Shown here piece after piece: positions 7,113-61,015 of a DNA stretch of 64,000 nucleotides (position 1 is the stretch's first letter; every line of letters starts with the position of its first letter). This DNA comes from Odiellus spinosus (Eukaryota > Arthropoda > Arachnida > Opiliones > Phalangiidae): assembly GCA_963920705.1 (NCBI GenBank), contig OY987232.1:2604001-2668000 (forward strand), given 5' to 3'. The translations under genes were made by a program, and so were the position numbers. The notes under the pieces were generated by a model. That model ran no database searches and was not told the origin of the DNA. It saw only the letters and a program-made list of their open reading frames with translations.

Positions 7113-7136
7113 GTGCATCTATACTTGGGGAAATTT
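7113..7136 (+). repeat. 24-bp long monomer with TTGGGGAAA
   Basis: This GTGCATCT-type monomer has four G followed by three A, one base more than the reference. It explains the +1 in the 967-bp spacing between the cassettes at 6906 and 7873. The corresponding monomers in neighbouring HOR copies have the normal length, so the insertion is private to this copy. Confidence 0.85.
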
Positions 7137-12828: not shown

Positions 12829-13125
12829 AGGGAATTTGTGAATCTATACTTGGGGAATTTGTGAATCTATACTTGAGAAATTTGTGAATCTATACTTGGG
12901 AAATTTTTGAATTTATATTTGGGAAATTTGTGCATCTATACTTGGGAAATTTGTGGATTTATACTTAGGGAATTTGTGAATCTATACTTGGAAAATTTGT
13001 GAATCTATACTTGGAAAATTTGTGAATATATATTAGGAAAATTTGTGAATCTATACTAGGAAAATTTGTGAATCTATACTTGGGAAATTTGTGAGTCTAT
13101 ACTTGGGAAATTTGTTAATCTATAC

Positions 13126-22416: not shown

Positions 22417-24301
22417 TGTGGATCTATACTTGGGAAATTTGTGGATCTATACTTGGGAAATTTGTGGATCTATACTTGGGAAATTTGTGGATCTATACTA
22501 AGGGAATTTGTGAATCTATACTTGGGGAATTGGTGAATATATACTTGGGAAATTTGTGAATCTATACTTGGGAAATTTTTGAATTTATATTTGGGAAATT
22601 TGTGCATCTATACTTGGGAAATTTGTGGATCTATACTTGGGAAATTTGTGGATTTATACTTAGGGAATTTGTGAATCTATACTTGGAAAATTTGTGAATC
22701 TATACTTGGAAAATTTGTGAATATATACGAGGAAAATTTGTGAATCTATACTAGGAAAATTTTGAATCTATACTTGGAAAATTTGTGAATCTATACTTGG
22801 GAAATTTATGAATCTATACTAGGAAAATTTGTGAATCTATACTTGGGAAATTTGTGGATCTATACTTGGGAAATTTGTAGATGTATACTTGGGAAATTTG
22901 TGGATCTATACTTGGGAAATTTGTGGATCTCTACTTGGAAAATTTGTGAATCTATACTTTTAAAATTTGTGAATCTATCCTTATGAAATTTGTGAATCTA
23001 TACTTGGGAAATTTGTGAGTCTATACTTGGGAAATTTGTTAATCTATACTTGGGAAATTTGTGAATCTATATTTGGAAAATTTGTGAATCTATACTTGGG
23101 AAATTTGTGGATCTATACTTGGGAAATTTGTGGATCTATACTTGGGAAATTTGTGGATCTATACTTAAGGAATTTGTGAATCTACACTTGGGAAATTTGT
23201 GAATTTATACTTGGGAAATTTGTGAGTCTATACTTGGGAAATTTGTTAATCTATACTTGGGAAATTTGTGAATCTATACTTGGAAAATTTGTGAATCTAT
23301 CCTTATGAAATTTGTGAATCTATACTTGGGAAATTTGTGAGTCTATACTTGGGAAATTTGTGAATCTAAATTTGGAAAATTTGTGCATCTATACTTGGGA
23401 AATTTGTGGATCTATACTTGGGAAATTTGTGGATCTATACTTGGGAAATTTGTGGATTTATACTTAGGGAATTTGTGAATCTATACTTGGAAAATTTGTG
23501 AATCTATACTTGGAAAATTTGTGAATATATACTAGGAAAATTTGTGAATCTATACTAGGAAAATTTTGAATCTATACTTGGAAAATTTGTGAATCTATAC
23601 TTGGGAAATTTATGAATCTATACTAGGAAAATTTGTGAATCTATACTTGGGAAATTTGTGGATCTATACTTGGGAAATTTGTAGATGTATACTTGGGAAA
23701 TTTGTGGATCTATACTTGGGAAATTTTGTGGATCTATACTTGGGAAATTTGTGGATCTCTACTTGGAAAATTTGTGAATCTATACTTTTAAAATTTGTGA
23801 ATTTATCCTTATGAAATTTGTGAGTCTATACTTGGGAAATTTGTTAATCTATACTTGGGAAATTTGTGAATCTATATTTGGAAAATTTGTGAATCTATAC
23901 TCGGGAAATTTGTGGATCTATACTTGGGAAATTTGTGGATCTATACTTGGGAAATTTGTGGATCTATACTTGGGAAATTTGTGGATCTATACTTGGGAAA
24001 TTTGTGGATCTATACTTAGGGAATTTGTGAATCTATACTTGGAGAATTTGTGAATCTATACTTGGGAAATTTGTGAATCTATACTTGGGAAATTTGTGCA
24101 TCTATACTTGGGAAATTTGTGCATCTATACTTGGGAAATTTGTGGATCTATACTTGGGAAATTTGTGGATCTATACTTGGGAAATTTGTGGATCTATACT
24201 TGGGAAATTTGTGGATCTATACTTGGGAAATTTGTGGATTTATACTTAGGGAATTTGTGAATCTATACTTGGAAAATTTGTGAATCTATACTTGGAAAAT
24301 T
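22417..24301 (+). repeat. 2,207-bp HOR, copy 2 with a 322-bp deletion
   Basis: 22417-23225 copies 20210-21018 and 23249-24301 copies 21364-22416. The copy is therefore 1,885 bp, shorter by 322 bp or exactly 14 monomers. The junction lies in the GTGAGTCT, GTTAATCT pair around 23225-23248, which resembles the pair at about 21131-21160 inside the lost region. That fits deletion by pairing of similar monomers. Confidence 0.85.
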
Positions 24302-25904
24302 TGCGAATCTATACTTGGAAAATTTGTGAATCTATACTTGGAAAATTTGTGAATATATACTAGGAAAATTTGTGAATCTATACTTGGAAAATTTGTGAAT
24401 CTATACTTGGAAAATTTGCGAATCTATACTTGGAAAATTTGTGAATCTATACTTGGAAAATTTGTGAATATATACTAGGAAAATTTGTGAATCTATACTT
24501 GGTAAGTTTTGAATCTATACTTTTAAAATTTGTGAATCTATACTAGGAAAATTTGTGAATCTATACTTGGGAAATTTGTGGATCTATACTTGGGAAATTT
24601 GTGGATCTATACTTGGGAAATTTGTGGATCTATACTTAGGGAATTTGTGAATCTATACTTAGGGAATTTGTGAATCTACATTTGGGAAATTTGTGAATTT
24701 ATACTTGGGAAATTTGTGCATCTATACTTGGGAAATTTGTGGATCTATACTTGGGAAATTTGTGGATCTATACTTGGGAAATTTGTGGATCTATACTTGG
24801 GAAATTTGTGGATCTATACTTGGGAAATTTGTGGATTTATACTTAGGGAATTTGTGAATCTATACTTGGAAAATTTGTGAATCTATACTTGGAAAATTTT
24901 GAATCTATACTTGGAAAATTTGTGAATCTATACTTGGGAAATTTATGAATCTATACTAGGAAAATTTGTGAATCTATACTTGGGAAATTTGTGGATCTAT
25001 ACTTGGGAAATTTGTGGATCTATACTTGGGAAATTTGTGGATCTATACTTAGGGAATTTGTGAATCTACACTTGGGAAATTTGTGAATTTATACTTGGGA
25101 AATTTGTGAATCTATACTTGGGAAATTTTTGAATTTATATTTGGGAAATTTGTGCATCTATACTTGGGAAATTTGTGGGTCTATACTTGGGAAATTTGAG
25201 GATCTATACTTGGGAAATTTGTGGATTTATACTTAGGGAATTTGTGAATCTATACTTGGAAAATTTGTGAATCTATACTTGGAAAATTTGTGAATCTATA
25301 CTTGGGAAATTTGTGGATCTCTACTTGGAAAATTTGTGAATATATACTTTTAAAATTTGTGAATCTATCCTTAAGAAAATTTTGAATATATACTTGGGAA
25401 ATTTGTGAATCTATACTTTGGAAATTTATGAATCTATACTAGGAAAATTTGTGAATCTATACTTGGGAAATTTGTGGATCTATACTTGGGAAATTTGTGG
25501 ATCTATACTTGGGAAATTTGTGGATCTATACTTGGGAAATTTTGTGGATCTATACTTGGGAAATTTGAGGATCTATACTTGGGAAATTTGTGGATCTCTT
25601 CTTGGAAACTTTGTGAATCTATACTTTTAAAATTTGTGAATCTATCCTTATGAAATTTGTGAATCTATACTTGGGAAATTTGTGAGTCTATACTTGGGGA
25701 ATTTGTTAATCTATACTTGGGAAATTTGTTAATCTATACTTGGGAAATTTGTGAATCTATATTTGGAAAATTTGTGAATCTATACTTGGGAAATTCGTGG
25801 ATCTATACTTGGGAAATTTGTGGATCTATACTCAGGGAATTTGTGAATCTATACTTGAAGAATTTGTGAATCTATACTTGGGAAATTTGTGAATTTATAC
25901 TTGG
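24146..25904 (+). repeat. 1,839-bp higher-order repeat, copy 1
   Basis: Markers TTTGCG (24301), GGTAAGTTTTG (24501), CTACAT (near 24675), TTTGAGGATC (near 25196), ATCTCTTCTTGG (near 25593) and TTCGTGG (near 25794) all recur 1,839 bp downstream. The period is 80 monomers less one base, which equals two 22-bp monomers and one 24-bp monomer per unit. The left edge overlaps the preceding HOR because both end in GTGGATCT runs. Confidence 0.85.
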
Positions 25905-25984
25905 AGAATTTGTGAATCTATACTTGGGAAATTTGTGAATCTATACTTGGGAAATTTGTGCATCTATACTTGGGAAATTTGTGC

Positions 25985-27743
25985 ATCTATACTTGGGAAA
26001 TTTGTGGATCTATACTTGGGAAATTTGTGGATCTATACTTGGGAAATTTGTGGATCTATACTTGGGAAATTTGTGGATTTATACTTAGGGAATTTGTGAA
26101 TCTATACTTGGAAAATTTGTGAATCTATACTTGGAAAATTTGCGAATCTATACTTGGAAAATTTGTGAATCTATACTTGGAAAATTTGTGAATATATACT
26201 AGGAAAATTTGTGAATCTATACTTGGAAAATTTGTGAATCTATACTTGGAAAATTTGCGAATCTATACTTGGAAAATTTGTGAATCTATACTTGGAAAAT
26301 TTGTGAATATATACTAGGAAAATTTGTGAATCTATACTTGGTAAGTTTTGAATCTATACTTTTAAAATTTGTGAATCTATACTAGGAAAATTTGTGAATC
26401 TATACTTGGGAAATTTGTGGATCTATACTTGGGAAATTTGTGGATCTATACTTGGGAAATTTGTGGATCTATACTTAGGGAATTTGTGAATCTATACTTA
26501 GGGAATTTGTGAATCTACATTTGGGAAATTTGTGAATTTATACTTGGGAAATTTGTGCATCTATACTTGGGAAATTTGTGGATCTATACTTGGGAAATTT
26601 GTGGATCTATACTTGGGAAATTTGTGGATCTATACTTGGGAAATTTGTGGATCTATACTTGGGAAATTTGTGGATTTATACTTAGGGAATTTGTGAATCT
26701 ATACTTGGAAAATTTGTGAATCTATACTTGGAAAATTTTGAATCTATACTTGGAAAATTTGTGAATCTATACTTGGGAAATTTATGAATCTATACTAGGA
26801 AAATTTGTGAATCTATACTTGGGAAATTTGTGGATCTATACTTGGGAAATTTGTGGATCTATACTTGGGAAATTTGTGGATCTATACTTAGGGAATTTGT
26901 GAATCTACACTTGGGAAATTTGTGAATTTATACTTGGGAAATTTGTGAATCTATACTTGGGAAATTTTTGAATTTATATTTGGGAAATTTGTGCATCTAT
27001 ACTTGGGAAATTTGTGGGTCTATACTTGGGAAATTTGAGGATCTATACTTGGGAAATTTGTGGATTTATACTTAGGGAATTTGTGAATCTATACTTGGAA
27101 AATTTGTGAATCTATACTTGGAAAATTTGTGAATCTATACTTGGGAAATTTGTGGATCTCTACTTGGAAAATTTGTGAATATATACTTTTAAAATTTGTG
27201 AATCTATCCTTAAGAAAATTTTGAATATATACTTGGGAAATTTGTGAATCTATACTTTGGAAATTTATGAATCTATACTAGGAAAATTTGTGAATCTATA
27301 CTTGGGAAATTTGTGGATCTATACTTGGGAAATTTGTGGATCTATACTTGGGAAATTTGTGGATCTATACTTGGGAAATTTTGTGGATCTATACTTGGGA
27401 AATTTGAGGATCTATACTTGGGAAATTTGTGGATCTCTTCTTGGAAACTTTGTGAATCTATACTTTTAAAATTTGTGAATCTATCCTTATGAAATTTGTG
27501 AATCTATACTTGGGAAATTTGTGAGTCTATACTTGGGGAATTTGTTAATCTATACTTGGGAAATTTGTTAATCTATACTTGGGAAATTTGTGAATCTATA
27601 TTTGGAAAATTTGTGAATCTATACTTGGGAAATTCGTGGATCTATACTTGGGAAATTTGTGGATCTATACTCAGGGAATTTGTGAATCTATACTTGAAGA
27701 ATTTGTGAATCTATACTTGGGAAATTTGTGAATTTATACTTGG
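25985..27743 (+). repeat. 1,839-bp higher-order repeat, copy 2
   Basis: This is the direct copy of 24146-25904, separated from it by about 80 bp of ordinary monomers (25905-25984). It begins after a GTGCATCT monomer where copy 1 has GTGGATCT, and ends where copy 1 has TTGGAG and this copy TTGGGA. Its right half is also the template of the following 1,496-bp duplication, so the 25.4-25.9 kb sequence exists three times in a row by 29.2 kb. Confidence 0.85.
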
Positions 27744-28306
27744 GAAATTTGTGAATTTATACTTGGGAAATTTGTGCATCTATACTTGGGAAATTTGTGG
27801 ATCTATACTTGGGAAATTTGTGGATCTATACTTGGGAAATTTGTGGATCTATACTTAGGGAATTTGTGAATCTATACTTGGAGAATTTGTGAATCTATAC
27901 TTGGGAAATTTGTGAATCTATACTTGGGAAATTTGTGAATTTATACTTGGGAAATTTGTGCATCTATACTTGGGAAATTTGTGAATCTATACTTGGAAAA
28001 TTTGTGAATCTATCCTTATGAAATTTGTGAATCTATACTTGGGAAATTTTTGAGTCTATACTTGGGAAATTTGTGAATCTATATTTGGAAAATTTGTGAA
28101 TCTATATTTGGAAAATTTGTGAATCTATACTTGGGAAATTTGTGAATCTATACTTGGGAAATTTGTGGATCTATACTTGGGAAATTTTTGGATCTATACT
28201 TGGGAAATTTGTGGATCTATACTTAGGGAATATGTGAATCTATACTTGGGAAATTTGTGAATCTATACTTGGGAAATTTGTGAATTTATACTTGGGAAAT
28301 TTGTGC
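26811..28306 (+). repeat. 1,496-bp higher-order repeat, copy 1
   Basis: The period of 65 monomers plus one base is explained by one 24-bp monomer (AAATTTTGTGG near 27377). Markers shared with copy 2 are ATCTCTTCTTGG (near 27433), TACTCAGGG (near 27668), TTGAAG (near 27694) and GGGAATATGTG (near 28226). It starts inside the second 1,839-bp copy, so this duplication is younger than, or independent of, that one. Confidence 0.85.
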
Positions 28307-29881
28307 ATCTATACTTGGGAAATTTGTGGATCTATACTTGGGAAATTTGTGGATCTATACTTGGGAAATTTGTGGATCTATACTTAGGGAATTTGTGAAT
28401 CTACACTTGGGAAATTTGTGAATTTATACTTGGGAAATTTGTGAATCTATACTTGGGAAATTTTTGAATTTATATTTGGGAAATTTGTGCATCTATACTT
28501 GGGAAATTTGTGGGTCTATACTTGGGAAATTTGAGGATCTATACTTGGGAAATTTGTGGATTTATACTTAGGGAATTTGTGAATCTATACTTGGAAAATT
28601 TGTGAATCTATACTTGGAAAATTTGTGAATCTATACTTGGGAAATTTGTGGATCTCTACTTGGAAAATTTGTGAATATATACTTTTAAAATTTGTGAATC
28701 TATCCTTAAGAAAATTTTGAATATATACTTGGGAAATTTGTGAATCTATACTTTGGAAATTTATGAATCTATACTAGGAAAATTTGTGAATCTATACTTG
28801 GGAAATTTGTGGATCTATACTTGGGAAATTTGTGGATCTATACTTGGGAAATTTGTGGATCTATACTTGGGAAATTTTGTGGATCTATACTTGGGAAATT
28901 TGAGGATCTATACTTGGGAAATTTGTGGATCTCTTCTTGGAAACTTTGTGAATCTATACTTTTAAAATTTGTGAATCTATCCTTATGAAATTTGTGAATC
29001 TATACTTGGGAAATTTGTGAGTCTATACTTGGGGAATTTGTTAATCTATACTTGGGAAATTTGTTAATCTATACTTGGGAAATTTGTGAATCTATATTTG
29101 GAAAATTTGTGAATCTATACTTGGGAAATTCGTGGATCTATACTTGGGAAATTTGTGGATCTATACTCAGGGAATTTGTGAATCTATACTTGAAGAATTT
29201 GTGAATCTATACTTGGGAAATTTGTGAATTTATACTTGGGAAATTTGTGAATTTATACTTGGGAAATTTGTGCATCTATACTTGGGAAATTTGTGGATCT
29301 ATACTTGGGAAATTTGTGGATCTATACTTGGGAAATTTGTGGATCTATACTTAGGGAATTTGTGAATCTATACTTGGAGAATTTGTGAATCTATACTTGG
29401 GAAATTTGTGAATCTATACTTGGGAAATTTGTGAATTTATACTTGGGAAATTTGTGCATCTATACTTGGGAAATTTGTGAATCTATACTTGGAAAATTTG
29501 TGAATCTATCCTTATGAAATTTGTGAATCTATACTTGGGAAATTTTTGAGTCTATACTTGGGAAATTTGTGAATCTATATTTGGAAAATTTGTGAATCTA
29601 TATTTGGAAAATTTGTGAATCTATACTTGGGAAATTTGTGAATCTATACTTGGGAAATTTGTGGATCTATACTTGGGAAATTTTTGGATCTATACTTGGG
29701 AAATTTGTGGATCTATACTTAGGGAATATGTGAATCTATACTTGGGAAATTTGTGAATCTATACTTGGGAAATTTGTGAATTTATACTTGGGAAATTTGT
29801 GCATCTATACTTGGGAAATTTGTGGATCTATACTTGGGAAATTTGTGGATCTATACTTGGGAAATTTGTGGATCTATACTT
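28307..29881 (+). repeat. 1,496-bp higher-order repeat, copy 2
   Basis: This tandem copy directly follows copy 1, and its match runs 79 bases past one period to 29881. Copy 1 switches to TTAGGG after the third GTGGATCT, whereas this copy has six GTGGATCT monomers before TTAGGG. The end is followed by a distinctive 24-bp monomer (CTTTGGGGAA, near 29948) and a CTAAAC monomer. Confidence 0.85.
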
Positions 29882-30856
29882 GGGAAATTTGTGGATCTAT
29901 ACTTGGGAAATTTGTGGATCTATACTTAGGGAATTTGTGAATCTATACTTTGGGGAATTTGTGAATCTAAACTTGGGAAATTTGTGAATCTATACTTGGG
30001 AAATTTTTGAATTTATATTTGGGAAATTTGTGCATCTATACTTGGTAAATTTTGAATCTATACTTTTAAAATTTGTGAATCTATACTAGGAAAATTTGTG
30101 AATCTATACTTGGGAAATTTGTGGATCTATACTTGGGAAATTTGTGGATTTATACTTGGGAAATTTGTGGATCTATACTTGGGAAATTTGTGGATCTATA
30201 CTTGGGAAATTTGTGGATCTATACTTGGGAAATTTGTGGATTTATACTTAGGGAATTTGTGAATCTATACTTAGAAAATTTGTGAATCTATACTTGGAAA
30301 ATTTGTGAATCTATACTTGGAAAATTTGTGAATCTATACTTGGAAAATTTGTGAATATATACTAGGAAAATTTGTGAATCTATACTTGGTAAATTTTGAA
30401 TCTATACTTGGAAAATTTGTGAATCTATACTTGGGAAATTTATGAATCTATACTAGGAAAATTTGTGAATCTATACTTGGGAAATTTGTGGATCTATACT
30501 TGGGAAATTTGTGGATCTATACTTGGGAAATTTGTGGATCTATACTTAGGGAATTTGTGAATCTACACTTGGGAAATTTTTGAATTTATATTTGGGAAAT
30601 TTGTGCATCTATACTTGGGAAATTTGTGGGTCTATACTTGGGAAATTCGAGGATCTATACTTGGGAAATTTGTGGATTTATACTTAGGGAATTTGTGAAT
30701 CTATACTTGGAAAATTTTTGAATTTATATTTGGGAAATTTGTGCATCTATACTTGGGAAATTTGTGGGTCTATACTTGGGAAATTCGAGGATCTATACTT
30801 GGGAAATTTGTGGATTTATACTTAGGGAATTTGTGAATCTATACTTGGAAAATTTG
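29882..30856 (+). repeat. Linker between the 1,496-bp and 1,014-bp HORs
   Basis: The linker holds one copy of the GGTAAATTTTG, TTTTAA, CTAGGA series (30044) and a run of seven successive GTGGATCT or GTGGATTT monomers (about 30119-30250). A second GGTAAATTTTG monomer lies near 30388, followed by the 138-bp duplication. Compared with the related segments at 33378 and 52601, it lacks the TTAGGG, CTACAT, GTGAATTT, GTGCATCT stretch, a multiple-monomer deletion. Confidence 0.7.
30564..30842 (+). repeat. 138-bp tandem duplication (6 monomers)
   Basis: The series TTTTTGAATTTATAT, GTGCATCT, GTGGGTCT, TTCGAGGATC, GTGGATTT, TTAGGG occurs twice in a row, at about 30577 and 30715. It is present once at the related places near 34100, 34860, 53300 and 59325. 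This is the smallest clean duplication I can delimit and looks recent. Confidence 0.85.
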
Positions 30857-32720
30857 TGAATCTATACTTGGGAAATTTGTGGATCTCTACTTGGAAAATT
30901 TGTGAATATATACTTTTAAAATTTGTGAATCTATCCTTAAGAAAATTTTGAATATATACTTGGGAAATTTGTGAATCTATACTTGGGAAATTTATGAATC
31001 TATACTAGGAAAATTTGTGAATCTATACTTGGGAAATTTGTGGATCTATACTTGGGAAATTTGTGGATCTATACTTGGGAAATTTGTGGATCTATACTTG
31101 GGAAATTTTGTGGATCTATACTTGGGAAATTTGAGGATCTATACTTGGGAAATTTGTGGATCTCTACTTGGAAACTTTGTGAATCTATACTTTTAAAATT
31201 TGTGAATCTATCCTTATGAAATTTGTGAGTCTATACTTGGGGAATTTGTTAATCTATACTTGGGAAATTTGTTAATCTATACTTGGGAAATTTGTGAATC
31301 TATATTTGGAAAATTTGTGAATCTATACTTGGGAAATTCGTGGATCTATACTTGGGAAATTTGTGGATCTATACTCAGGGAATTTGTGAATCTATACTTG
31401 AAGAATTTGTGAATCTATACTTGGGAAATTTGTGAATTTATACTTGGGAAATTTGTGAATTTATACTTGGGAAATTTGTGCATCTATACTTGGGAAATTT
31501 GTGGATCTATACTTGGGAAATTTGTGAATCTATACTTGGAGAATTTGTGAATCTATCCTTATGAAATTTGTGAATCTATACTTGGGAAATTTTTGAGTCT
31601 ATACTTGGGAAATTTGTGAATCTATATTTGGAAAATTTGTGAATCTATATTTGGAAAATTTGTGAATCTATACTTGGGAAATTTGTGAATCTATACTTGG
31701 GAAATTTGTGGATCTATACTTGGGAAATTTGTGGATCTATACTTGGGAAATTTGTGGATCTATACTTGGGAAATTTGTGGATCTATACTTGGGAAATTTT
31801 GTGGATCTATACTTGGGAAATTTGTGGATTTATGCTTAGGGAATTTGTGAATCTATACTTGGAAAATTGGTGAATCTATACTTGGGAAATTTGTGGATCT
31901 CTACTTGGAAAATTTGTGAATATATACTTTTAAAATTTGTGAATCTATCCTTAAGAAAATTTTGAATATATACTTGGGAAATTTGTGAATCTATACTTGG
32001 GAAATTTATGAATCTATACTAGGAAAATTTGTGAATCTATACTTGGGAAATTTGTGGATCTATACTTGGGAAATTTGTGGATCTATACTTGGGAAATTTG
32101 TGGATCTATACTTGGGAAATTTTGTGGATCTATACTTGTGAAATTTGAGGATCTATACTTGGGAAATTTGTGGATCTCTACTTGGAGACTTTGTGAATCT
32201 ATACTTTTAAAATTTGTGAATCTATCCTTATGAAATTTGTGAATCTATACTTGGGAAATTTGTGAGTCTATACTTGGGGAATTTGTTAATCTATACTTGG
32301 GAAATTTGTTAATCTATACTTGGGAAATTTGTGAATCTATATTTGGAAAATTTGTGAATCTATACTTGGGAAATTCGTGGATCTATACTTGGGAAATTTG
32401 TGGATCTATACTCAGGGAATTTGTGAATCTATACTTGAAGAATTTGTGAATCTATACTTGGGAAATTTGTGAATTTATACTTGGGAAATTTGTGCATCTA
32501 TACTTGGGAAATTTGTGGATCTATACTTGGGAAATTTGTGAATCTATACTTGGAGAATTTGTGAATCTATCCTTATGAAATTTGTGAATCTATACTTGGG
32601 AAATTTTTGAGTCTATACTTGGGAAATTTGTGAATCTATATTTGGAAAATTTGTGAATCTATATTTGGAAAATTTGTGAATCTATACTTGGGAAATTTGT
32701 GAATCTATACTTGGGAAATT
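30857..32720 (+). repeat. 1,014-bp higher-order repeat, two copies
   Basis: Copy 1 is about 30857-31870 and copy 2 about 31871-32720 (partial). GAGGATCT falls at 31133 and 32147, 1,014 bp apart, which is 44 monomers plus two for the two 24-bp monomers in the unit. A monomer ending AAAATTGGTG near 31862 marks the end of copy 1. The same unit is present three times at 55094-57977. Confidence 0.8.
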
Positions 32721-33001
32721 TTTGGATCTATACTTGGGAAATTTGTGGATCTATACTTGGGAAATTTGTGAATTTATACTTGGGAAATTTGTGCACCTAT
32801 ATTTGGGAAATTTGTGAATCTATACTTGGAAAATTTGTGAATCTATCCTTATGAAATTTGTGAATCTATACTTGGGAAATTTTTGAGTCTATACTTGGGA
32901 AATTTGTGAATCTATATTTGGAAAATTTGTGAATCTATATTTGGAAAATTTGTGAATCTATACTTGGGAAATTTGTGAATCTATACTTGGGAAATTTGTG
33001 G

Positions 33002-36000
33002 ATCTATACTTGGGAAATTTTTGGATCTATACTTGGGAAATTTGTGGATCTATACTTAGGGAATATGTGAATCTATACTTGGGAAATTTGTGAATCTATA
33101 CTTGGGAAATTTGTGAATTTATACTTGGGAAATTTGTGCATCTATACTTGGGAAATTTGTGGATCTATACTTGGGAAATTTGTGGATCTATACTTGGGAA
33201 ATTTGTGGATCTATACTTGGGAAATTTGTGGATCTATACTTGGGAAATTTGTGGATCTATACTTAGGGAATTTGTGAATCTATACTTTGGGGAATTTGTG
33301 AATCTAAACTTGGGAAATTTGTGAATCTATACTTGGGAAATTTTTGAATTTATATTTGGGAAATTTGTGCATCTATACTTGGTAAATTTTGAATCTATAC
33401 TTTTAAAATTTGTGAATCTATACTAGGAAAATTTGTGAATCTATACTTGGGAAATTTGTGGATCTATACTTGGGAAATTTGTGGATCTATACTTGGGAAA
33501 TTTGTGGATCTATACTTAGGGAATTTGTGAATCTACATTTGGGAAATTTGTGAATTTATACTTGGGAAATTTGTGCATCTATACTTGGGAAATTTGTGGA
33601 TCTATACTTGGGAAATTTGTGGATTTATACTTGGGAAATTTGTGGATCTATACTTGGGAAATTTGTGGATCTATACTTGGGAAATTTGTGGATCTATACT
33701 TGGGAAATTTGTGGATTTATACTTAGGGAATTTGTGAATCTATACTTAGAAAATTTGTGAATCTATACTTGGAAAATTTGTGAATCTATACTTGGAAAAT
33801 TTGTGGATCTATACTTGGAAAATTTGTGAATATATACTAGGAAAATTTGTGAATCTATACTTGGTAAATTTTGAATCTATACTTGGAAAATTTGTGAATC
33901 TATACTTGGGAAATTTATGAATCTATACTAGGAAAATTTGTGAATCTATACTTGGGAAATTTGTGGATCTATACTTGGGAAATTTGTGGATCTATACTTG
34001 GGAAATTTGTGGATCTATACTTAGGGAATTTGTGAATCTACACTTGGGAAATTTGTGAATTTATACTTGTGAAATTTGTGAATATATACTTGGGAAATTT
34101 TTGAATTTATATTTGGGAAATTTGTGCATCTATACTTGGGAAATTTGTGGGTCTATACTTGGGAAATTCGAGGATCTATACTTGGGAAATTTGTGGATTT
34201 ATACTTAGGGAATTTGTGAATCTATACTTGGAAAATTTGTGAATCTATACTTGGGAAATTTGTGGATCTCTACTTGGAAAATTTGTGAATATATACTTTT
34301 AAAATTTGTGAATCTATCCTTAAGAAAATTTTGAATATATACTTGGGAAATTTGTGGATCTATACTTGGGAAATTTGTGGATTTATACTTGGGAAATTTG
34401 TGGATCTATACTTGGGAAATTTGTGGATCTATACTTGGGAAATTTGTGGATCTATACTTGGGAAATTTGTGGATTTATACTTAGGGAATTTGTGAATCTA
34501 TACTTAGAAAATTTGTGAATCTATACTTGGAAAATTTGTGAATCTATACTTGGAAAATTTGTGAATCTATACTTGGAAAATTTGTGAATATATACTAGGA
34601 AAATATGTGAATCTATACTTGGTAAATTTTGAATCTATACTTGGAAAATTTGTGAATCTATACTTGGGAAATTTATGAATCTATACTAGGAAAATTTGTG
34701 AATCTATACTTGGGAAATTTGTGGATCTATACTTGGGAAATTTGTGGATCTATACTTGGGAAATTTGTGGATCTATACTTAGGGAATTTGTGAATCTACA
34801 CTTGGGAAATTTGTGAATTTATACTTGTGAAATTTGTGAATATATACTTGGGAAATTTTTGAATTTATATTTGGGAAATTTGTGCATCTATACTTGGGAA
34901 ATTTGTGGGTCTATACTTGGGAAATTCGAGGATCTATACTTGGGAAATTTGTGGATTTATACTTAGGGAATTTGTGAATCTATACTTGGAAAATTTGTGA
35001 ATCTATACTTGGGAAATTTGTGGATCTCTACTTGGAAAATTTGTGAATATATACTTTTAAAATTTGTGAATCTATCCTTAAGAAAATTTTGAATATATAC
35101 TTGGGAAATTTGTGAATCTATACTTGGGAAATTTATGAATCTATACTAGGAAAATTTGTGAATCTATACTTGGGAAATTTGTTGATCTATACTTGGGAAA
35201 TTTGTGGATCTATACTTGGGAAATTTGTGGATCTATACTTGGGAAATTTTGTGGATCTATACTTGGGAAATTTGAGGATCTATACTTGGGAAATTTGTGG
35301 ATCCTACTTGGAAACTTTGTGAATCTATACTTTTAAAATTTGTGAATCTATCCTTATGAAATTTGTGAGTCTATACTTGGGGAATTTGTTAATCTATACT
35401 TGGGAAATTTGTTAATCTATACTTGGGAAATTTGTGAATCTATATTTGGAAAATTTGTGAATCTATACTTGGGAAATTCGTGGATCTATACTTGGGAAAT
35501 TTGTGGATCTATACTCAGGGAATTTGTGAATCTATACTTGAAGAATTTGTGAATCTATACTTGGGAAATTTGTGAATTTATACTTGGGAAATTTGTGAAT
35601 TTATACTTGGGAAATTTGTGCATCTATACTTGGGAAATTTGTGGATCTATACTTGGGAAATTTGTGAATCTATACTTGGAGAATTTGTGAATCTATCCTT
35701 ATGAAATTTGTGAATCTATACTTGGGAAATTTTTGAGTCTATACTTGGGAAATTTGTGAATCTATATTTGGAAAATTTGTGAATCTATATTTGGAAAATT
35801 TGTGAATCTATACTTGGGAAATTTGTGAATCTATACTTGGGAAATTTGTGGATCTATACTTGGGAAATTTGTGGATCTATACTTGGGAAATTTGTGGATC
35901 TATACTTGGGAAATTTGTGGATCTATACTTGGGAAATTTTGTGGATCTATACTTGGGAAATTTGTGGATTTATGCTTAGGGAATTTGTGAATCTATACTT

Positions 36001-50400: not shown

Positions 50401-52280
50401 GTGAATCTATACTAGGAAAATTTGTGAATCTATACTTGGGAAATTTGTGGATCTATACTTGGGAAATTTGTGGATCTATACTTGGGAAATTTGTGGATCT
50501 ATACTTAGGGAATTTGTGAATCTATACTTAGGGAATTTGTGAATCTATATTTGGGAAATTTGTGAATTTATACTTGGGAAATTTGTGCATCTATACTTGG
50601 GAAATTTGTGGATCTATACTTGGGAAATTTGTGGATCTATACTTGGGAAATTTGTGGATCTATACTTGGGAAATTTGTGGATCTATACTTGGGAAATTTG
50701 TGGATTTATACTTAGGGAATTTGTGAATCTATACTTGGAAAATTTGTGAATCTATACTTGGAAAATTTTGAATCTATACTTGGAAAATTTGTGAATCTAT
50801 ACTTGGGAAATTTATGAATCTATACTAGGAAAATTTGTGAATCTATACTTGGGAAATTTGTGGATCTATACTTGGGAAATTTGTGGATCTATACTTGGGA
50901 AATTTGTGGATCTATACTTAGGGAATTTGTGAATCTACACTTGGGAAATTTGTGAATTTATACTTGGGAAATTTGTGAATCTATACTTGGGAAATTTTTG
51001 AATTTATATTTGGGAAATTTGTGCATCTATACTTGGGAAATTTGTGGGTCTATACTTGGGAAATTTGAGGATCTATACTTGGGAAATTTGTGGATTTATA
51101 CTTAGGGAATTTGTGAATCTATACTTGGAAAATTTGTGAATCTATACTTGGAAAATTTGTGAATCTATACTTGGGAAATTTGTGGATCTCTACTTGGAAA
51201 ATTTGTGAATATATACTTTTAAAATTTGTGAATCTATCCTTAAGAAAATTTTGAATATATACTTGGGAAATTTGTGAATCTATACTTTGGAAATTTATGA
51301 ATCTATACTAGGAAAATTTGTGAATCTATACTTGGGAAATTTGTGGATCTATACTTGGGAAATTTGTGGATCTATACTTGGGAAATTTGTGGATCTATAC
51401 TTGGGAAATTTTGTGGATCTATACTTGGGAAATTTGAGGATCTATACTTGGGAAATTTGTGGATCTCTTCTTGGAAACTTTGTGAATCTATACTTTTAAA
51501 ATTTGTGAATCTATCCTTATGAAATTTGTGAATCTATACTTGGGAAATTTGTGAGTCTATACTTGGGGAATTTGTTAATCTATACTTGGGAAATTTGTTA
51601 ATCTATACTTGGGAAATTTGTGAATCTATATTTGGAAAATTTGTGAATCTATACTTGGGAAATTCGTGGATCTATACTTGGGAAATTTGTGGATCTATAC
51701 TCAGGGAATTTGTGAATCTATACTTGAAGAATTTGTGAATCTATACTTGGGAAATTTGTGAATTTATACTTGGGAAATTTGTGAATTTATACTTGGGAAA
51801 TTTGTGCATCTATACTTGGGAAATTTGTGGATCTATACTTGGGAAATTTGTGGATCTATACTTGGGAAATTTGTGGATCTATACTTGGGAAATTTGTGGA
51901 TCTATACTTAGGGAATTTGTGAATCTATACTTGGAGAATTTGTGAATCTATACTTGGGAAATTTGTGAATCTATACTTGGGAAATTTGTGAATTTATACT
52001 TGGGAAATTTGTGCATCTATACTTGGGAAATTTGTGCATCTATACTTGGGAAATTTGTGAATCTATACTTATGAAATTTGTGAATCTATACTTGGGAAAT
52101 TTTTGAGTCTATACTTGGGAAATTTGTGAATCTATATTTGGAAAATTTGTGAATCTATATTTGGAAAATTTGTGAATCTATACTTGGGAAATTTGTGAAT
52201 CTATACTTGGGAAATTTGTGGATCTATACTTGGGAAATTTTTGGATCTATACTTGGGAAATTTGTGGATCTATACTTAGG
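50150..52280 (+). repeat. Super-block copy matching 26.1-28.2 kb
   Basis: The offset is 24,030 bp: GGTAAG at 50370 against 26340, ATCTCTTCTTGG near 51464 against 27434. It increases by one monomer to about 24,053 bp at the GGGAATATGTG monomer (52284 against 28231). Only one copy of the 1,496-bp unit is present here, whereas two are present at 26811-29881. Confidence 0.8.
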
Positions 52281-53919
52281 GAATATGTGAATCTATACTT
52301 GGGAAATTTGTGAATCTATACTTGGGAAATTTGTGAATTTATACTTGGGAAATTTGTGCATCTATACTTGGGAAATTTGTGGATCTATACTTGGGAAATT
52401 TGTGGATCTATACTTGGGAAATTTGTGGATCTATACTTGGGAAATTTGTGGATCTATACTTGGGAAATTTGTGGATCTATACTTAGGGAATTTGTGAATC
52501 TATACTTTGGGGAATTTGTGAATCTAAACTTGGGAAATTTGTGAATCTATACTTGGGAAATTTTTGAATTTATATTTGGGAAGTTTGTGCATCTATACTT
52601 GGTAAATTTTGAATCTATACTTTTAAAATTTGTGAATCTATACTAGGAAAATTTGTGAATCTATACTTGGGAAATTTGTGGATCTATACTTGGGAAATTT
52701 GTGGATCTATACTTGGGAAATTTGTGGATCTATACTTAGGGAATTTGTGAATCTACATTTGGGAAATTTGTGAATTTATACTTGGGAAATTTGTGCATCT
52801 ATACTTGGGAAATTTGTGGATCTATACTTGGGAAATTTGTGGATTTATACTTGGGAAATTTGTGGATCTATACTTGGGAAATTTGTGGATCTATACTTGG
52901 GAAATTTGTGGATCTATACTTGGGAAATTTGTGGATTTATACTTAGGGAATTTGTGAATCTATACTTGGAAAATTTGTGAATCTATACTTGGAAAATTTG
53001 TGAATCTATACTTGGAAAATTTGTGAATATATACTAGGAAAATTTGTGAATCTATACTTGGTAAATTTTGAATCTATACTTGGAAAATTTGTGAATCTAT
53101 ACTTGGGAAATTTATGAATCTATACTAGGAAAATTTGTGAATCTATACTTGGGAAATTTGTGGATCTATACTTGGGAAATTTGTGGATCTATACTTGGGA
53201 AATTTGTGGATCTATACTTAGGGAATTTGTGAATCTACACTTGGGAAATTTGTGAATTTATACTTGTGAAATTTGTGAATCTATACTTGGGAAATTTTTG
53301 AATTTATATTTGGGAAATTTGTGCATCTATACTTGGGAAATTTGTGGGTCTATACTTGGGAAATTCGAGGATCTATACTTGGGAAATTTGTGGATTTATA
53401 CTTAGGGAATTTGTGAATCTATACTTGGAAAATTTGTGAATCTATACTTGGGAAATTTGTGGATCTCTACTTGGAAAATTTGTGAATATATACTTTTAAA
53501 ATTTGTGAATCTATCCTTAAGAAAATTTTGAATATATACTTGGGAAATTTGTGAATCTATACTTGGGAAATTTATGAATCTATACTAGGAAAATTTGTGA
53601 ATCTATACTTGGGAAATTTGTGGATCTATACTTGGGAAATTTGTGTATCTATACTTGGGAAATTTGTGGATCTATACTTGGGAAATTTTGTGGATCTATA
53701 CTTGGGAAATTTGAGGATCTATACTTGGGAAATTTGTGGATCTCTACTTGGAAACTTTGTGAATCTATACTTTTAAAATTTGTGAATCTATCCTTATGAA
53801 ATTTGTGAGTCTATACTTGGGGAATTTGTTAATCTATACTTGGGAAATTTGTTAATCTATACTTGGGAAATTTGTGAATCTATATTTGGAAAATTTGTGA
53901 ATCTATACTTGGGAAATTT
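52190..53919 (+). repeat. 1,656/1,702-bp higher-order repeat, copy 1
   Basis: The GGGAATATGTG monomer at 52284 recurs 1,702 bp downstream. After a two-monomer (46-bp) loss in the second copy the offset becomes 1,656 bp, exactly 72 monomers, as shown by GGGAAGTTTGTGC at 52581 and 54237 and GTGTATCT at 53643 and 55299. GGGAAGTTTG is a private mutation seen only in these two copies. Confidence 0.85.
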
Positions 53920-55575
53920 GTGGATCTATACTTGGGAAATTTTTGGATCTATACTTGGGAAATTTGTGGATCTATACTTAGGGAATATGTGAATCTATAC
54001 TTGGGAAATTTGTGAATCTATACTTGGGAAATTTGTGAATTTATACTTGGGAAATTTGTGCATCTATACTTGGGAAATTTGTGGATCTATACTTGGGAAA
54101 TTTGTGGATCTATACTTGGGAAATTTGTGGATCTATACTTGGGAAATTTGTGGATCTATACTTGGGAAATTTGTGGATCTATACTTAGGGAATTTGTGAA
54201 TCTATACTTTGGGGAATTTGTGAATCTAAACTTGGGAAGTTTGTGCATCTATACTTGGTAAATTTTGAATCTATACTTTTAAAATTTGTGAATCTATACT
54301 AGGAAAATTTGTGAATCTATACTTGGGAAATTTGTGGATCTATACTTGGGAAATTTGTGGATCTATACTTGGGAAATTTGTGGATCTATACTTAGGGAAT
54401 TTGTGAATCTACATTTGGGAAATTTGTGAATTTATACTTGGGAAATTTGTGCATCTATACTTGGGAAATTTGTGGATCTATACTTGGGAAATTTGTGGAT
54501 TTATACTTGGGAAATTTGTGGATCTATACTTGGGAAATTTGTGGATCTATACTTGGGAAATTTGTGGATCTATACTTGGGAAATTTGTGGATTTATACTT
54601 AGGGAATTTGTGAATCTATACTTGGAAAATTTGTGAATCTATACTTGGAAAATTTGTGAATCTATACTTGGAAAATTTGTGAATATATACTAGGAAAATT
54701 TGTGAATCTATACTTGGTAAATTTTGAATCTATACTTGGAAAATTTGTGAATCTATACTTGGGAAATTTATGAATCTATACTAGGAAAATTTGTGAATCT
54801 ATACTTGGGAAATTTGTGGATCTATACTTGGGAAATTTGTGGATCTATACTTGGGAAATTTGTGGATCTATACTTAGGGAATTTGTGAATCTACACTTGG
54901 GAAATTTGTGAATTTATACTTGTGAAATTTGTGAATCTATACTTGGGAAATTTTTGAATTTATATTTGGGAAATTTGTGCATCTATACTTGGGAAATTTG
55001 TGGGTCTATACTTGGGAAATTCGAGGATCTATACTTGGGAAATTTGTGGATTTATACTTAGGGAATTTGTGAATCTATACTTGGAAAATTTGTGAATCTA
55101 TACTTGGGAAATTTGTGGATCTCTACTTGGAAAATTTGTGAATATATACTTTTAAAATTTGTGAATCTATCCTTAAGAAAATTTTGAATATATACTTGGG
55201 AAATTTGTGAATCTATACTTGGGAAATTTATGAATCTATACTAGGAAAATTTGTGAATCTATACTTGGGAAATTTGTGGATCTATACTTGGGAAATTTGT
55301 GTATCTATACTTGGGAAATTTGTGGATCTATACTTGGGAAATTTTGTGGATCTATACTTGGGAAATTTGAGGATCTATACTTGGGAAATTTGTGGATCTC
55401 TACTTGGAAACTTTGTGAATCTATACTTTTAAAATTTGTGAATCTATCCTTATGAAATTTGTGAGTCTATACTTGGGGAATTTGTTAATCTATACTTGGG
55501 AAATTTGTTAATCTATACTTGGGAAATTTGTGAATCTATATTTGGAAAATTTGTGAATCTATACTTGGGAAATTC
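53920..55575 (+). repeat. 1,656-bp higher-order repeat, copy 2
   Basis: This copy lacks two monomers between the CTAAAC monomer and the GGGAAGTTTG monomer (near 54225-54240). It is otherwise co-linear with copy 1 up to about 55575, where it continues with TTCGTGG and copy 1 with TTTGTGG. Its last 480 bases double as the start of the 1,014-bp HOR. Confidence 0.85.
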
Positions 55576-57977
55576 GTGGATCTATACTTGGGAAATTTGT
55601 GGATCTATACTCAGGGAATTTGTGAATCTATACTTGAAGAATTTGTGAATCTATACTTGGGAAATTTGTGAATTTATACTTGGGAAATTTGTGAATTTAT
55701 ACTTGGGAAATTTGTGCATCTATACTTGGGAAATTTGTGGATCTATACTTGGGAAATTTGTGAATCTATACTTGGAGAATTTGTGAATCTATTCTTATGA
55801 AATTTGTGAATCTATACTTGGGAAATTTTTGAGTCTATACTTGGGAAATTTGTGAATCTATATTTGGAAAATTTGTGAATCTATATTTGGAAAATTTGTG
55901 AATCTATACTTGGGAAATTTGTGAATCTATACTTGGGAAATTTGTGGATCTATACTTGGGAAATTTGTGGATCTATACTTGGGAAATTAGTGGATCTATA
56001 CTTGGGAAATTTGTGGATCTATACTTGGGAAATTTTGTGGATCTATACTTGGGAAATTTGTGGATTTATGCTTAGGGAATTTGTGAATCTATACTTGGAA
56101 AATTGGTGAATCTATACTTGGGAAATTTGTGGATCTCTACTTGGAAAATTTGTGAATATATACTTTTAAAATTTGTGAATCTATCCTTAAGAAAATTTTG
56201 AATATATACTTGGGAAATTTGTGAATCTATACTTGGGAAATTTATGAATCTATACTAGGAAAATTTGTGAATCTATACTTGGGAAATTTGTGGATCTATA
56301 CTTGGGAAATTTGTGTATCTATACTTGGGAAATTTGTGGATCTATACTTGGGAAATTTTGTGGATCTATACTTGGGAAATTTGAGGATCTATACTTGGGA
56401 AATTTGTGGATCTCTACTTGGAAACTTTGTGAATCTATACTTTTAAAATTTGTGAATCTATCCTTATGAAATTTGTGAGTCTATACTTGGGGAATTTGTT
56501 AATCTATACTTGGGAAATTTGTTAATCTATACTTGGGAAATTTGTGAATCTATATTTGGAAAATTTGTGAATCTATACTTGGGAAATTCGTGGATCTATA
56601 CTTGGGAAATTTGTGGATCTATACTCAGGGAATTTGTGAATCTATACTTGAAGAATTTGTGAATCTATACTTGGGAAATTTGTGAATTTATACTTGGGAA
56701 ATTTGTGAATTTATACTTGGGAAATTTGTGCATCTATACTTGGGAAATTTGTGGATCTATACTTGGGAAATTTGTGAATCTATACTTGGAGAATTTGTGA
56801 ATCTATTCTTATGAAATTTGTGAATCTATACTTGGGAAATTTTTGAGTCTATACTTGGGAAATTTGTGAATCTATATTTGGAAAATTTGTGAATCTATAT
56901 TTGGAAAATTTGTGAATCTATACTTGGGAAATTTGTGAATCTATACTTGGGAAATTTGTGGATCTATACTTGGGAAATTTGTGGATCTATACTTGGGAAA
57001 TTAGTGGATCTATACTTGGGAAATTTGTGGATCTATACTTGGGAAATTTTGTGGATCTATACTTGGGAAATTTGTGGATTTATGCTTAGGGAATTTGTGA
57101 ATCTATACTTGGAAAATTGGTGAATCTATACTTGGGAAATTTGTGGATCTCTACTTGGAAAATTTGTGAATATATACTTTTAAAATTTGTGAATCTATCC
57201 TTAAGAAAATTTTGAATATATACTTGGGAAATTTGTGAATCTATACTTGGGAAATTTATGAATCTATACTAGGAAAATTTGTGAATCTATACTTGGGAAA
57301 TTTGTGGATCTATACTTGGGAAATTTGTGGATCTATACTTGGGAAATTTGTGGATCTATACTTGGGAAATTTTGTGGATCTATACTTGGGAAATTTGAGG
57401 ATCTATACTTGGGAAATTTGTGGATCTCTACTTGGAAACTTTGTGAATCTATACTTTTAAAATTTGTGAATCTATCCTTATGAAATTTGTGAATCTATAC
57501 TTGGGAAATTTGTGAGTCTATACTTGGGGAATTTGTTAATCTATACTTGGGAAATTTGTTAATCTATACTTGGGAAATTTGTGAATCTATATTTGGAAAA
57601 TTTGTGAATCTATACTTGGGAAATTCGTGGATCTATACTTGGGAAATTTGTGGATCTATACTCAGGGAATTTGTGAATCTATACTTGAAGAATTTGTGAA
57701 TCTATACTTGGGAAATTTGTGAATTTATACTTGGGAAATTTGTGCATCTATACTTGGGAAATTTGTGGATCTATACTTGGGAAATTTGTGAATCTATACT
57801 TGGAGAATTTGTGAATCTATCCTTATGAAATTTGTGAATCTATACTTGGGAAATTTTTGAGTCTATACTTGGGAAATTTGTGAATCTATATTTGGAAAAT
57901 TTGTGAATCTATATTTGGAAAATTTATGAATCTATACTTGGGAAATTTGTGAATCTATACTTGGGAAATTTTTGGAT
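55094..57977 (+). repeat. 1,014-bp higher-order repeat, three copies
   Basis: Copies are about 55094-56107, 56108-57121 and 57122-57977 (partial), with GAGGATCT at 55369, 56383 and 57397. The first two share private changes AAATTAGTGG (55986, 57000), CTATTCTTATGA (near 55792, 56806) and GTGTATCT (55299, 56313), which are absent from the third copy and from the related 30857-32720 segment. The first two are therefore the most recent pair. Confidence 0.85.
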
Positions 57978-58601
57978 CTATACTTGGGAAATTTGTGGAT
58001 CTATACTTGGGAAATTTGTGAATTTATACTTGGGAAATTTGTGCACCTATATTTGGGAAATTTGTGAATCTATACTTGGAAAATTTGTGAATCTATACTT
58101 GGGAAATTTGTGAATCTATACTTGGGAAATTTTTGAGTCTATACTTGGGAAATTTGTGAATCTATATTTGGAAAATTTGTGAATCTATATTTGGAAAATT
58201 TGTGAATCTATACTTGGGAAATTTGTGAATCTATACTTGGGAAATTTGTGGATCTATACTTGGGAAATTTTTGGATCTATACTTGGGAAATTTGTGGATC
58301 TATACTTAGGGAATATGTGAATCTATACTTGGGAAATTTGTGAATCTATACTTGGGAAATTTGTGAATTTATACTTGGGAAATTTGTGCATCTATACTTG
58401 GGAAATTTGTGGATCTATACTTGGGAAATTTGTGGATCTATACTTGGGAAATTTGTGGATCTATACTTGGGAAATTTGTGGATCTATACTTGGGAAATTT
58501 GTGGATCTATACTTAGGGAATTTGTGAATCTATACTTTGGGGAATTTGTGAATCTAAACTTGGGAAATTTGTGAATCTATACTTGGGAAATTTTTGAATT
58601 T
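57978..58601 (+). repeat. Super-block copy matching 32.7-33.35 kb
   Basis: The offset to the earlier region is 25,250 bp, shown by GTGCACCT (near 58043 against 32793), GGGAATATGTG (near 58311 against 33061), and the CTTTGGGGAA and CTAAAC monomers. One monomer differs: 58088-58110 has TTGGGA where the earlier copy has the CTATCC-TTATGA type. Confidence 0.8.
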
Positions 58602-61015
58602 ATATTTGGGAAATTTGTGCATCTATACTTGGTAAATTTTGAATCTATACTTTTAAAATTTGTGAATCTATACTAGGAAAATTTGTGAATCTATACTTGG
58701 GAAATTTGTGAATCTATACTTGGGAAATTTGTGGATCTATACTTAGGGAATTTGTGAATCTACATTTGGGAAATTTGTGAATTTATACTTGGGAAATTTG
58801 TGCATCTATACTTGGGAAATTTGTGGATCTATACTTGGGAAATTTGTGGATTTATACTTGGGAAATTTGTGGATCTATACTTGGGAAATTTGTGGATCTA
58901 TACTTGGGAAATTTGTGGATCTATACTTGGGAAATTTGTGGATTTATACTTAGGGAATTTGTGAATCTATACTTAGAAAATTTGTGAATCTATACTTGGA
59001 AAATTTGTGAATCTATACTTGGAAAATTTGTGAATCTATACTTGGAAAATTTGTGAATATATACTAGGAAAATTTGTGAATCTATACTTGGTAAATTTTG
59101 AATCTATACTTGGAAAATTTGTGAATCTATACTTGGGAAATTTATGAATCTATACTAGGAAAATTTGTGAATCTATACTTGGGAAATTTGTGGATCTATA
59201 CTTGGGAAATTTGTGGATCTATACTTGGGAAATTTGTGGATCTATACTTAGGGAATTTGTGAATCTACACTTGGGAAATTTGTGAATTTATACTTGTGAA
59301 ATTTGTGAATCTATACTTGGGAAATTTTTGAATTTATATTTGGGAAATTTGTGCATCTATACTTGGGAAATTTGTGGGTCTATACTTGGGAAATTCGAGG
59401 ATCTATACTTGGGAAATTTGTGGATTTATACTTAGGGAATTTGTGAATCTATACTTGGAAAATTTGTGAATCTATACTTGGGAAATTTGTGGATCTCTAC
59501 TTGGAAAATTTGTGAATATATACTTTTAAAATTTGTGAATCTATCCTTAAGAAAATTTTGAATATATACTTGGGAAATTTGTGAATCTATACTTGGGAAA
59601 TTTATGAATCTATACTAGGAAAATTTGTGAATCTATACTTGGGAAATTTGTGGATCTATACTTGGGAAATTTGTGGATCTATACTTGGGAAATTTGTGGA
59701 TCTATACTTGGGAAATTTTGTGGATCTATACTTGGGAAATTTGAGGATCTATACTTGGGAAATTTGTGGATCCTACTTGGAAACTTTGTGAATCTATACT
59801 TTTAAAATTTGTGAATCTATCCTTATGAAATTTGTGAGTCTATACTTGGGGAATTTGTTAATCTATACTTGGGAAATTTGTTAATCTATACTTGGGAAAT
59901 TTGTGAATCTATATTTGGAAAATTTGTGAATCTATACTTGGGAAATTCGTGGATCTATACTTGGGAAATTTGTGGATCTATACTCAGGGAATTTGTGAAT
60001 CTATACTTGAAGAATTTGTGAATCTATACTTGGGAAATTTGTGAATTTATACTTGGGAAATTTGTGAATTTATACTTGGGAAATTTGTGCATCTATACTT
60101 GGGAAATTTGTGGATCTATACTTGGGAAATTTGTGAATCTATACTTGGAGAATTTGTGAATCTATCCTTATGAAATTTGTGAATCTATACTTGGGAAATT
60201 TTTGAGTCTATACTTGGGAAATTTGTGAATCTATATTTGGAAAATTTGTGAATCTATATTTGGAAAATTTGTGAATCTATACTTGGGAAATTTGTGAATC
60301 TATACTTGGGAAATTTGTGGATCTATACTTGGGAAATTTTGTGGATCTATACTTGGGAAATTTGTGGATTTATGCTTAGGGAATTTGTGAATCTATACTT
60401 GGAAAATTTGTGAATCTATACTTGGGAAATTTGTGGATCTCTACTTGGAAAATTTGTGAATATATACTTTTAAAATTTGTGAATCTATCCTTAAGAAAAT
60501 TTTGAATATATACTTGGGAAATTTGTGAATCTATACTTGGGAAATTTATGAATCTATACTAGGAAAATTTGTGAATCTATACTTGGGAAATTTGTGGATC
60601 TATACTTGGGAAATTTGTGGATCTATACTTGGGAAATTTGTGGATCTATACTTGGGAAATTTTGTGGATCTATACTTGGGAAATTTGAGGATCTATACTT
60701 GGGAAATTTGTGGATCTCTACTTGGAAACTTTGTGAATCTATACTTTTAAAATTTGTGAATCTATCCTTATGAAATTTGTGAATCTATACTTGGGAAATT
60801 TGTGAGTCTATACTTGGGGAATTTGTTAATCTATACTTGGGAAATTTGTTAATCTATACTTGGGAAATTTGTGAATCTATATTTGGAAAATTTGTGAATC
60901 TATACTTGGGAAATTCGTGGATCTATAATTGGGAAATTTGTGGATCTATACTCAGGGAATTTGTGAATCTATACTTGAAGAATTTGTGAATCTATACTTG
61001 GGAAATTTGTGAATT
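58602..61015 (+). repeat. 2,438-bp higher-order repeat, copy 1
   Basis: Markers ATCCTACTTGG (59770) and ATAATTGGG (60925) recur 2,438 bp downstream, exactly 106 monomers. The first GGTAAATTTTG (58631) recurs only 2,415 bp downstream because copy 2 has one extra GTGGATCT monomer near 61142. The same marker order at 33.4-36.6 kb shows this unit derives from the 4.5-kb family in condensed form. Confidence 0.85.

Follow-up and report, generated by a model that had tools for sequence, protein, structure and literature searches.

The DNA considered here, hereafter the window, is a 64,000-nucleotide stretch of contig OY987232.1 from the arachnid Odiellus spinosus (assembly GCA_963920705.1, positions 2,604,001 to 2,668,000). 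It is filled by a satellite with a 23-bp monomer in which two long blocks, denoted B1 and B2, carry their monomer types in the same order. Tandem Repeats Finder (TRF) places the 23-bp array at 7-64,000, with 2783 copies and 90% matches. Wrap-around alignment divides the window into 2,785 monomer pieces of 144 types, most of which are 23 bp long (n=2,688), with the remainder measuring 22 bp (n=57), 24 bp (n=37), and 21, 9, and 4 bp (one each). GC skew is above zero in 16/16 4-kb bins, and therefore the orientation of the array is constant at that scale. The window thus presents the short monomer and long head-to-tail array of a higher-order-repeat (HOR) satellite. Multi-monomer units are likewise evident, because local offsets among the 70 longest segments listed show 0 to approximately 3% mismatches, compared to 90% matches between monomers and their consensus.

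A dot plot at 1-kb resolution, built from exact matches no shorter than 150 bp, displays A sequence at 0-24 kb and 42-48 kb in alternation with B sequence at 24-42 kb and 48-64 kb, from which five segments were defined (Table 1). The borders at 18.4 kb (A1/A2) and 42.3 kb (B1/A3) were placed by eye. Analyses of monomer types, trigrams, and 460-bp windows used borders at 24.0/47.7 kb, and those of block alignment, distinct sequence, and collapsed strings used 23,377/47,662. Four types of monomer are found 11 times within B1 and nine times within B2, with zero occurrences in A1, A2, and A3. By shared monomer trigrams, B1/B2 have a Jaccard index of 0.50 and A2/A3 one of 0.35, and values are 0.07-0.14 when A blocks are compared with B blocks or A1 is compared with the other A blocks. 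A first-pass annotation of this DNA had placed GTAGATG-bearing sequence ahead of each B copy. This arrangement is borne out by the 16 occurrences of the motif, which are confined to 18,580-23,681 (6) and 42,197-47,966 (10).

The same annotation proposed that an order of HOR families is repeated in two blocks separated by about 24 kb, and the alignment of monomer strings agrees with this proposal. The alignment was weighted by information, such that rare types count more, with scoring and gap costs chosen by hand. When 18.0-42.3 kb is aligned with 42.3-64 kb, a single forward chain emerges that pairs 735 monomers, 678 of them identical, for a score of 2296, and that extends over 18.9-41.4 kb against 42.4-63.9 kb. 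Shuffling the second part in chunks of 1, 15, 44, 65, 130, or 220 monomers yields mean scores of 16 to 1567, and the observed score is reached in 0/60 shuffles at each size. The highest shuffled value (2181) comes from 220-monomer chunks, which retain most of the order. Reversing the order of chunks gives scores of 941-1277. For the core comparison of 23,376-37,500 with 47,661-61,015, the score is 1607. Three chunk sizes were shuffled, and for each of them 0/60 shuffles reach this value, the best being 1546.

Conservation of order is also evident when the comparison is restricted to B1 and B2. Their score is 1999. Shuffles with three sizes of chunk average 593-1284 and peak at 1606, with 0/100 per size reaching the observed score. 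These within-B shuffles rule out, for B, a compartment effect alone, whereby two families would alternate with no conservation of order. The B1/B2 order is still kept when tandem duplicates are collapsed, with scores of 1917, 1817, and 1548 under three settings, compared to maxima of 1340, 1351, and 1172 among 100 shuffles per setting. Furthermore, among 276 pairs of 10-kb windows separated by at least 10 kb, the separation is 20-28 kb in every one of the best 15, and mean scores are maximal at 24 kb. CentromereArchitect is described as defining a superHOR as a string of HORs that is repeated with tandem degrees ignored, with a default MinCount of 2 (PMC8336445). B1 and B2 conform to this definition, in that their string recurs in order at least twice, as judged by an equivalent order test rather than by HORDecomposer.

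The two blocks also differ little at the level of individual bases. Along the B1/B2 chain there are 38 edits per 13,385 aligned bp, and 548/582 aligned monomers are identical. Ungapped segments matched across the copies include ones with mismatches of 0/1046, 3/1533, 3/1070, 12/2706, and 15/1950. The seven marker pairs on which the first-pass annotation relied are real, given identities of 99-100% in the surrounding 100 bp and exact runs that range from 123 to 687 bp. Two of these pairs require adjustment. The TTTGCG pair is correctly matched but lies one base away from its reported coordinates, at 24,300 and 48,585. The pair 30,044/52,601 is a true match that falls off the best chain, which instead pairs 30.0 kb with 54.2 kb. 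Thus, B1 and B2 are two colinear blocks with low mutual divergence.

Near-identity of the copies begins at a sharp left edge. With the copies offset by 24,285, the number of mismatches in 92 bp drops from 8-11 to 0 at 23,377/47,662. A second edge is found at an offset of 26,170, where the same measure drops from 5-10 to 0 at 21,492/47,662. This second edge arises from local duplication, the sequence at 21.1-22.4 kb being a duplicate of that at 23.0-24.3 kb.

To the left of this edge, A2 and A3 resemble each other less than do the B blocks. Only 130/152 of their aligned monomers are identical, versus 548/582 in B (Fisher p = 0.0009), and they accumulate 27 edits per 3,493 aligned bases, versus the lower ratio given above for B1/B2. 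When ungapped 460-bp windows are matched to sequence 20-28 kb away, the best match has a median of 17 (A2) or 20 (A3) mismatches versus 3 in both B1 and B2, although this measure also counts single-monomer shifts. The A2/A3 order score is 336, compared to shuffle means of 144-268, and it is reached by 0, 0, and 4 of 100 shuffles with chunks of 15, 44, and 65 monomers, respectively. Conservation of order between A2 and A3 is therefore weakly supported. A separate feature of A3 is that positions 42969-47912 consist largely of exact local copies at offsets of 1,793, 3,149, and 1,356 bp that span 898-1,579 bp without a mismatch, and as a result this spacer looks freshly amplified.

The first-pass annotation viewed a super-repeat of approximately 24 kb as a third level of organization above the monomer and the kb-scale HOR, and a unit of that fixed length is not supported. 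Exact matches no shorter than 150 bp contribute 274 bases per available kb in the 24-kb bin. The values are 435, 294, 344, and 301 in the bins at 1, 2, 3, and 4 kb, respectively, and 49-107 from 9 to 18 kb. Accordingly, the diagonal near 24 kb that was expected to stand out in a dot plot is dominant among long-range diagonals, being the strongest beyond 5 kb, but it is weaker than the HOR diagonals at 1-4 kb. A related check suggested by that annotation, based on 40-mers that occur exactly twice, is a weak one here. Of these 40-mers, 52/1084 lie 23-26 kb apart and 981/1084 are separated by 1-5 kb.

Moreover, the offset between the copies is not constant. Within the B portion of the chain, it ranges from about 22.4 to 25.3 kb in steps that are largely HOR-sized. 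The drift had been described as monomer-sized, but successive changes between the markers are 23, 232, 1473, 2693, 781, and 45 bp, and thus are mostly larger. The amount of distinct sequence per block was measured in 230-bp windows with 0, 2, or 4 mismatches allowed. At up to 2 mismatches, B1 (18.9 kb) contains 8.2 kb and B2 (16.3 kb) contains 7.2 kb of distinct sequence, and the corresponding B1/B2 values are 10.1/9.6 kb at 0 mismatches and 6.9/6.3 kb at 4. At the intermediate threshold, partners in the opposite copy exist for 75% of the windows in B1 and for 84% of those in B2. The slips in offset and the approximately 7-10 kb of distinct sequence per block contradict a fixed 24-kb unit. It seems reasonable to propose instead that the homologous entity is a block measuring perhaps 7-10 kb, and that unequal gains together with the A3 spacer add up to the distance of 24 kb. 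Because the local inflation of that distinct sequence mostly differs between the copies, the spacing would be partly accidental.

The window holds two copies of B, with none in 1-18.4 kb. The alignment of A1 with B1 scores 40, compared to shuffle means of 40-42, and this score is reached by 61, 90, and 94 of 100 shuffles at three chunk sizes. Likewise, at most 3% of A1 windows have a partner in B1 or B2 at up to 2 mismatches per 230 bp. No third B copy was thus found inside A1. Two copies represent one duplication rather than a repeating third level.

Both B blocks are rich in shorter duplications (Table 1), which also include an offset of 1607 bp in B2. The longest exact repeat in the window is the pair at an offset of 4,439 bp in B1, which marks either a very recent duplication or a spot that is sensitive to assembly.

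Table 1. Features of the satellite array, with positions counted from the first nucleotide of the window.
Feature	Positions	Strand	Basis
Whole 23-bp satellite array	7..64000	+	Consensus AATTTGTGAATCTATACTTGGGA, single orientation; TRF
A1, A-type array without a B block	1..18400	+	A1/B1 alignment no better than shuffles
A2, GTAGATG-bearing, precedes first B copy	18400..23376	+	Markers and A2/A3 alignment
B1, first copy of duplicated block	23377..42300	+	Chain, shuffle controls, sharp left edge
A3, GTAGATG-bearing, precedes second B copy	42300..47661	+	Markers and A2/A3 alignment
B2, second copy, truncated by window end	47662..64000	+	Chain, shuffle controls, sharp left edge
Local duplication in B1, offset 4,439 bp	33649..41983 (33,649-37,544 and 38,088-41,983)	+	0/3,896 mismatches
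Local duplication in B1, offset 1,839 bp	24068..27856	+	8/1,950 mismatches
Local duplication in B1, offset 1,496 bp	26811..29881	+	0/1,575 mismatches
Local duplication in B2, offset 2,438 bp	58679..63457	+	2/2,341 mismatches
Local duplication in B2, offset 1,656 bp	52576..55762	+	11/1,531 mismatches
Local duplication in B2, offset 1,014 bp	55025..57492	+	3/1,454 mismatches

These local duplications are largely specific to one copy or the other. Many of their members match each other as well as, or better than, segments matched across the copies (e.g., 0/3896, 0/1575, and 2/2341 mismatches). In 460-bp windows, the median number of mismatches to the best partner within 8 kb is 0 in B1 and 1 in B2, versus 3 at 20-28 kb. 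The strictly best partner is local for 88/155 windows in B1 and 68/138 in B2 and lies 20-28 kb away for 18 and 36, respectively, with the remainder being ties or partners at other distances. Similar comparisons were made for four modules (M1-M4), whose coordinates were hand-picked from a list of ungapped repeat segments. For M1, examined at 34,338/38,777 and 58,807/61,245, there are 0 differences inside each copy and 3/966 between copies. For M2, there are 0-1 differences within a copy and 2-4/959 between copies. Together with the local best partners, M1 and M2 support an order of events in which the block was copied first and local growth came afterwards.

We consider it likely that a single segmental duplication occurred within the satellite array and was followed by mostly independent local expansion of the copies. 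According to this proposal, the B block, perhaps 7-10 kb long at the time and possibly accompanied by adjoining GTAGATG sequence, would have been copied once inside the array. Recombination between out-of-register repeats could have produced the copy, either by unequal sister-chromatid exchange or by break-induced replication. In this regard, a study in human cells found that RAD52 and PIF1 are needed for extensive array change, and break-induced replication was suggested there (PMC11034957). Each copy may then have been enlarged, mostly separately, by shorter duplications of about 0.8-4.4 kb. The outcome would be that module order is retained and module copy number differs, with the approximately 24-kb spacing being an accident of these gains. 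What we infer, as opposed to observe, is the recombination mechanism, the ancestral length, and the order of events where modules disagree.

Several observations do not sit easily with this scheme. Collapse of tandem duplicates was only partial, given that the loosest setting reduced B1 from 822 to 617 monomers and B2 from 710 to 505. Because only part of the redundancy was removed, the ancestral length of the block is uncertain. Some diagonals between the copies are poorer than those listed above, with mismatches of 27/1114 at an offset of 24,262 and 23/1987 at 25,869. A2 and A3 have diverged more than B1 and B2, whereas a copy of the whole 24-kb A+B unit in a single event predicts equal age. 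In addition, certain modules depart from the pattern of M1 and M2. The M3 module at 24,972 differs by 6 from those at 26,811, 28,307, and 50,841, which are mutually identical over 1046 bp. M1 modules at 52777-53742 and 54433-55398 are identical to each other but differ at 11-14/966 bp from four other members drawn from both B copies, and these two represent an older module lineage. The M4 pattern is mixed. Finally, some local pairs inside B are older than the matches between the copies, such as those with mismatches of 32/1797 at an offset of 6030 and 11/1531 at 1656. To account for the misfit modules and old local pairs, one would need either earlier internal duplications followed by loss or conversion at a later time.

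Other explanations have been weighed against a single duplication, of which the one that survives best is a true superHOR array. Under this alternative, the window is the edge of a long array whose amplification unit is the approximately 24-kb A+B segment, with many more copies rightward and with each unit able to differ in its local HOR copy number. The presence of GTAGATG sequence before both B copies would be expected in this case, as would the fact that the A2/A3 score beats most shuffles, and a third unit could follow because the window stops inside B2. However, B is absent from 1-18.4 kb by both alignment and window matching, and the match between A2 and A3 is inferior to that between B1 and B2. 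The copies are also unequal in length, and their offsets slip over the range noted above. We therefore regard a repeating A+B unit as unlikely.

Perhaps the two blocks are not neighbors in the genome at all, but are alleles brought together by the assembly, either as two haplotypes of the locus or as two similar array regions joined end to end. Low base divergence with differing local copy number is also expected of alleles in a fast-changing array, and exact repeats of up to 3.9 kb hamper assembly. However, A2 and A3 would be alleles as well, and yet they diverge more than B1 and B2, which makes the concatenation of haplotypes less likely. The sharp onset of near-identity likewise argues against a misjoin. 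The window contains no Ns and its monomer cutting is uninterrupted, although neither observation excludes such an event. On balance, an artefact of this type is quite improbable. The least probable of the explanations considered is that B entered an A-type array twice or was copied to a second site by gene conversion, break-induced copying, or reinsertion of an extrachromosomal circle rather than by tandem duplication in place, which would suit the B-specific monomer types, the sharp edge of near-identity, and the weaker flanking A match, but the near-identical part extends through GTAGATG-bearing A-type sequence (23,681 and 47,966), such that the copied piece includes some A, and the right edge of B2 is beyond the window.

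Judged from its form, the array is presumably a eukaryotic satellite of heterochromatic character. No open reading frame of at least 150 amino acids (ATG, GTG, or TTG starts, table 11) is present in the window, and no match to it was obtained with Rfam at gathering thresholds or with a tRNA search. An origin in a prokaryote or virus was rejected, as two monomer patterns have no exact match in viral contigs and two have none in genome contigs. A blastn search of phages and plasmids likewise returned no match for 24,001-26,000, a result that applies to this 2-kb query alone and that a low-complexity filter may have affected by masking it. The monomer was not found by text search of a collection of papers with six words of 16-18 bases from both strands of the consensus and its G variant, and a phrase search for 23-bp satellites, monomers, or tandem repeats returned nothing related by title. 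Dyad symmetry in two forms of the monomer, with loops of 0-8 bases, is not above that of shuffled monomers. There are 57 CpG sites in positions 1-64000 (observed/expected 0.05), but the consensus has only two C residues, each preceding T, and hence this scarcity tells little about methylation.

A 23-bp monomer is also reported for Chio1 and Chio2, the centromeric satellites of Chionographis japonica, which similarly form long arrays and for which a cluster of higher-order repeats has been described (PMC10264360). However, the intermingled 28-bp variant described for Chio is not in the window, where 2,782/2,785 pieces are 22-24 bp long. The 8-bp dyad said to pair neighboring Chio monomers also has no counterpart, because the longest self-complementary word in an array of the consensus is 6 bp (AAATTT). 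Among variants in the window, 11/722 8-mers are present on both strands. Chio centromere units are described as mixing forward and reverse arrays and as averaging 1.89 Mb, which is far more than the 64 kb of the window, in which one orientation is seen. Identity with the Chio satellites is rejected because the 28-bp variant and the consensus dyad are lacking, in a comparison with the published descriptions.

The duplication of B also has counterparts in other satellite arrays that have been described. It shares with the superHORs of CentromereArchitect the recurrence of HORs in the same order, for which two occurrences are enough, but that definition was made on human alpha satellite (PMC8336445) and the window has a 23-bp monomer and long, imperfect HORs. 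The cascading 58mer superHOR reported for the orangutan Y chromosome resembles the B blocks in its very long unit, in the recurrence of monomer types within it, and in a divergence below 1%. However, that array is described with 67 HOR copies (PMC12428378), whereas the window has two block copies that differ in length. In pea CEN6, with other satellites and another genome, large portions of satellite arrays are reported to have undergone segmental duplication (PMC10027222), and layered expansion has been described as a mode of change in human arrays (PMC12046899). The first-pass annotation called its third level unusually long for a satellite. Because long superHORs and segmental duplications of arrays have been published, the duplication of B is a further case of a known phenomenon.

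If further copies do lie beyond the window, the unit would be a very long one for a 23-bp satellite. The two blocks also serve as a caution that a similar offset need not imply a fixed repeat unit. As it stands, the array offers a clear and countable case of a short-monomer satellite that has probably grown at several scales, first through the copying of a multi-kilobase block and then through shorter duplications that are mostly specific to each copy.

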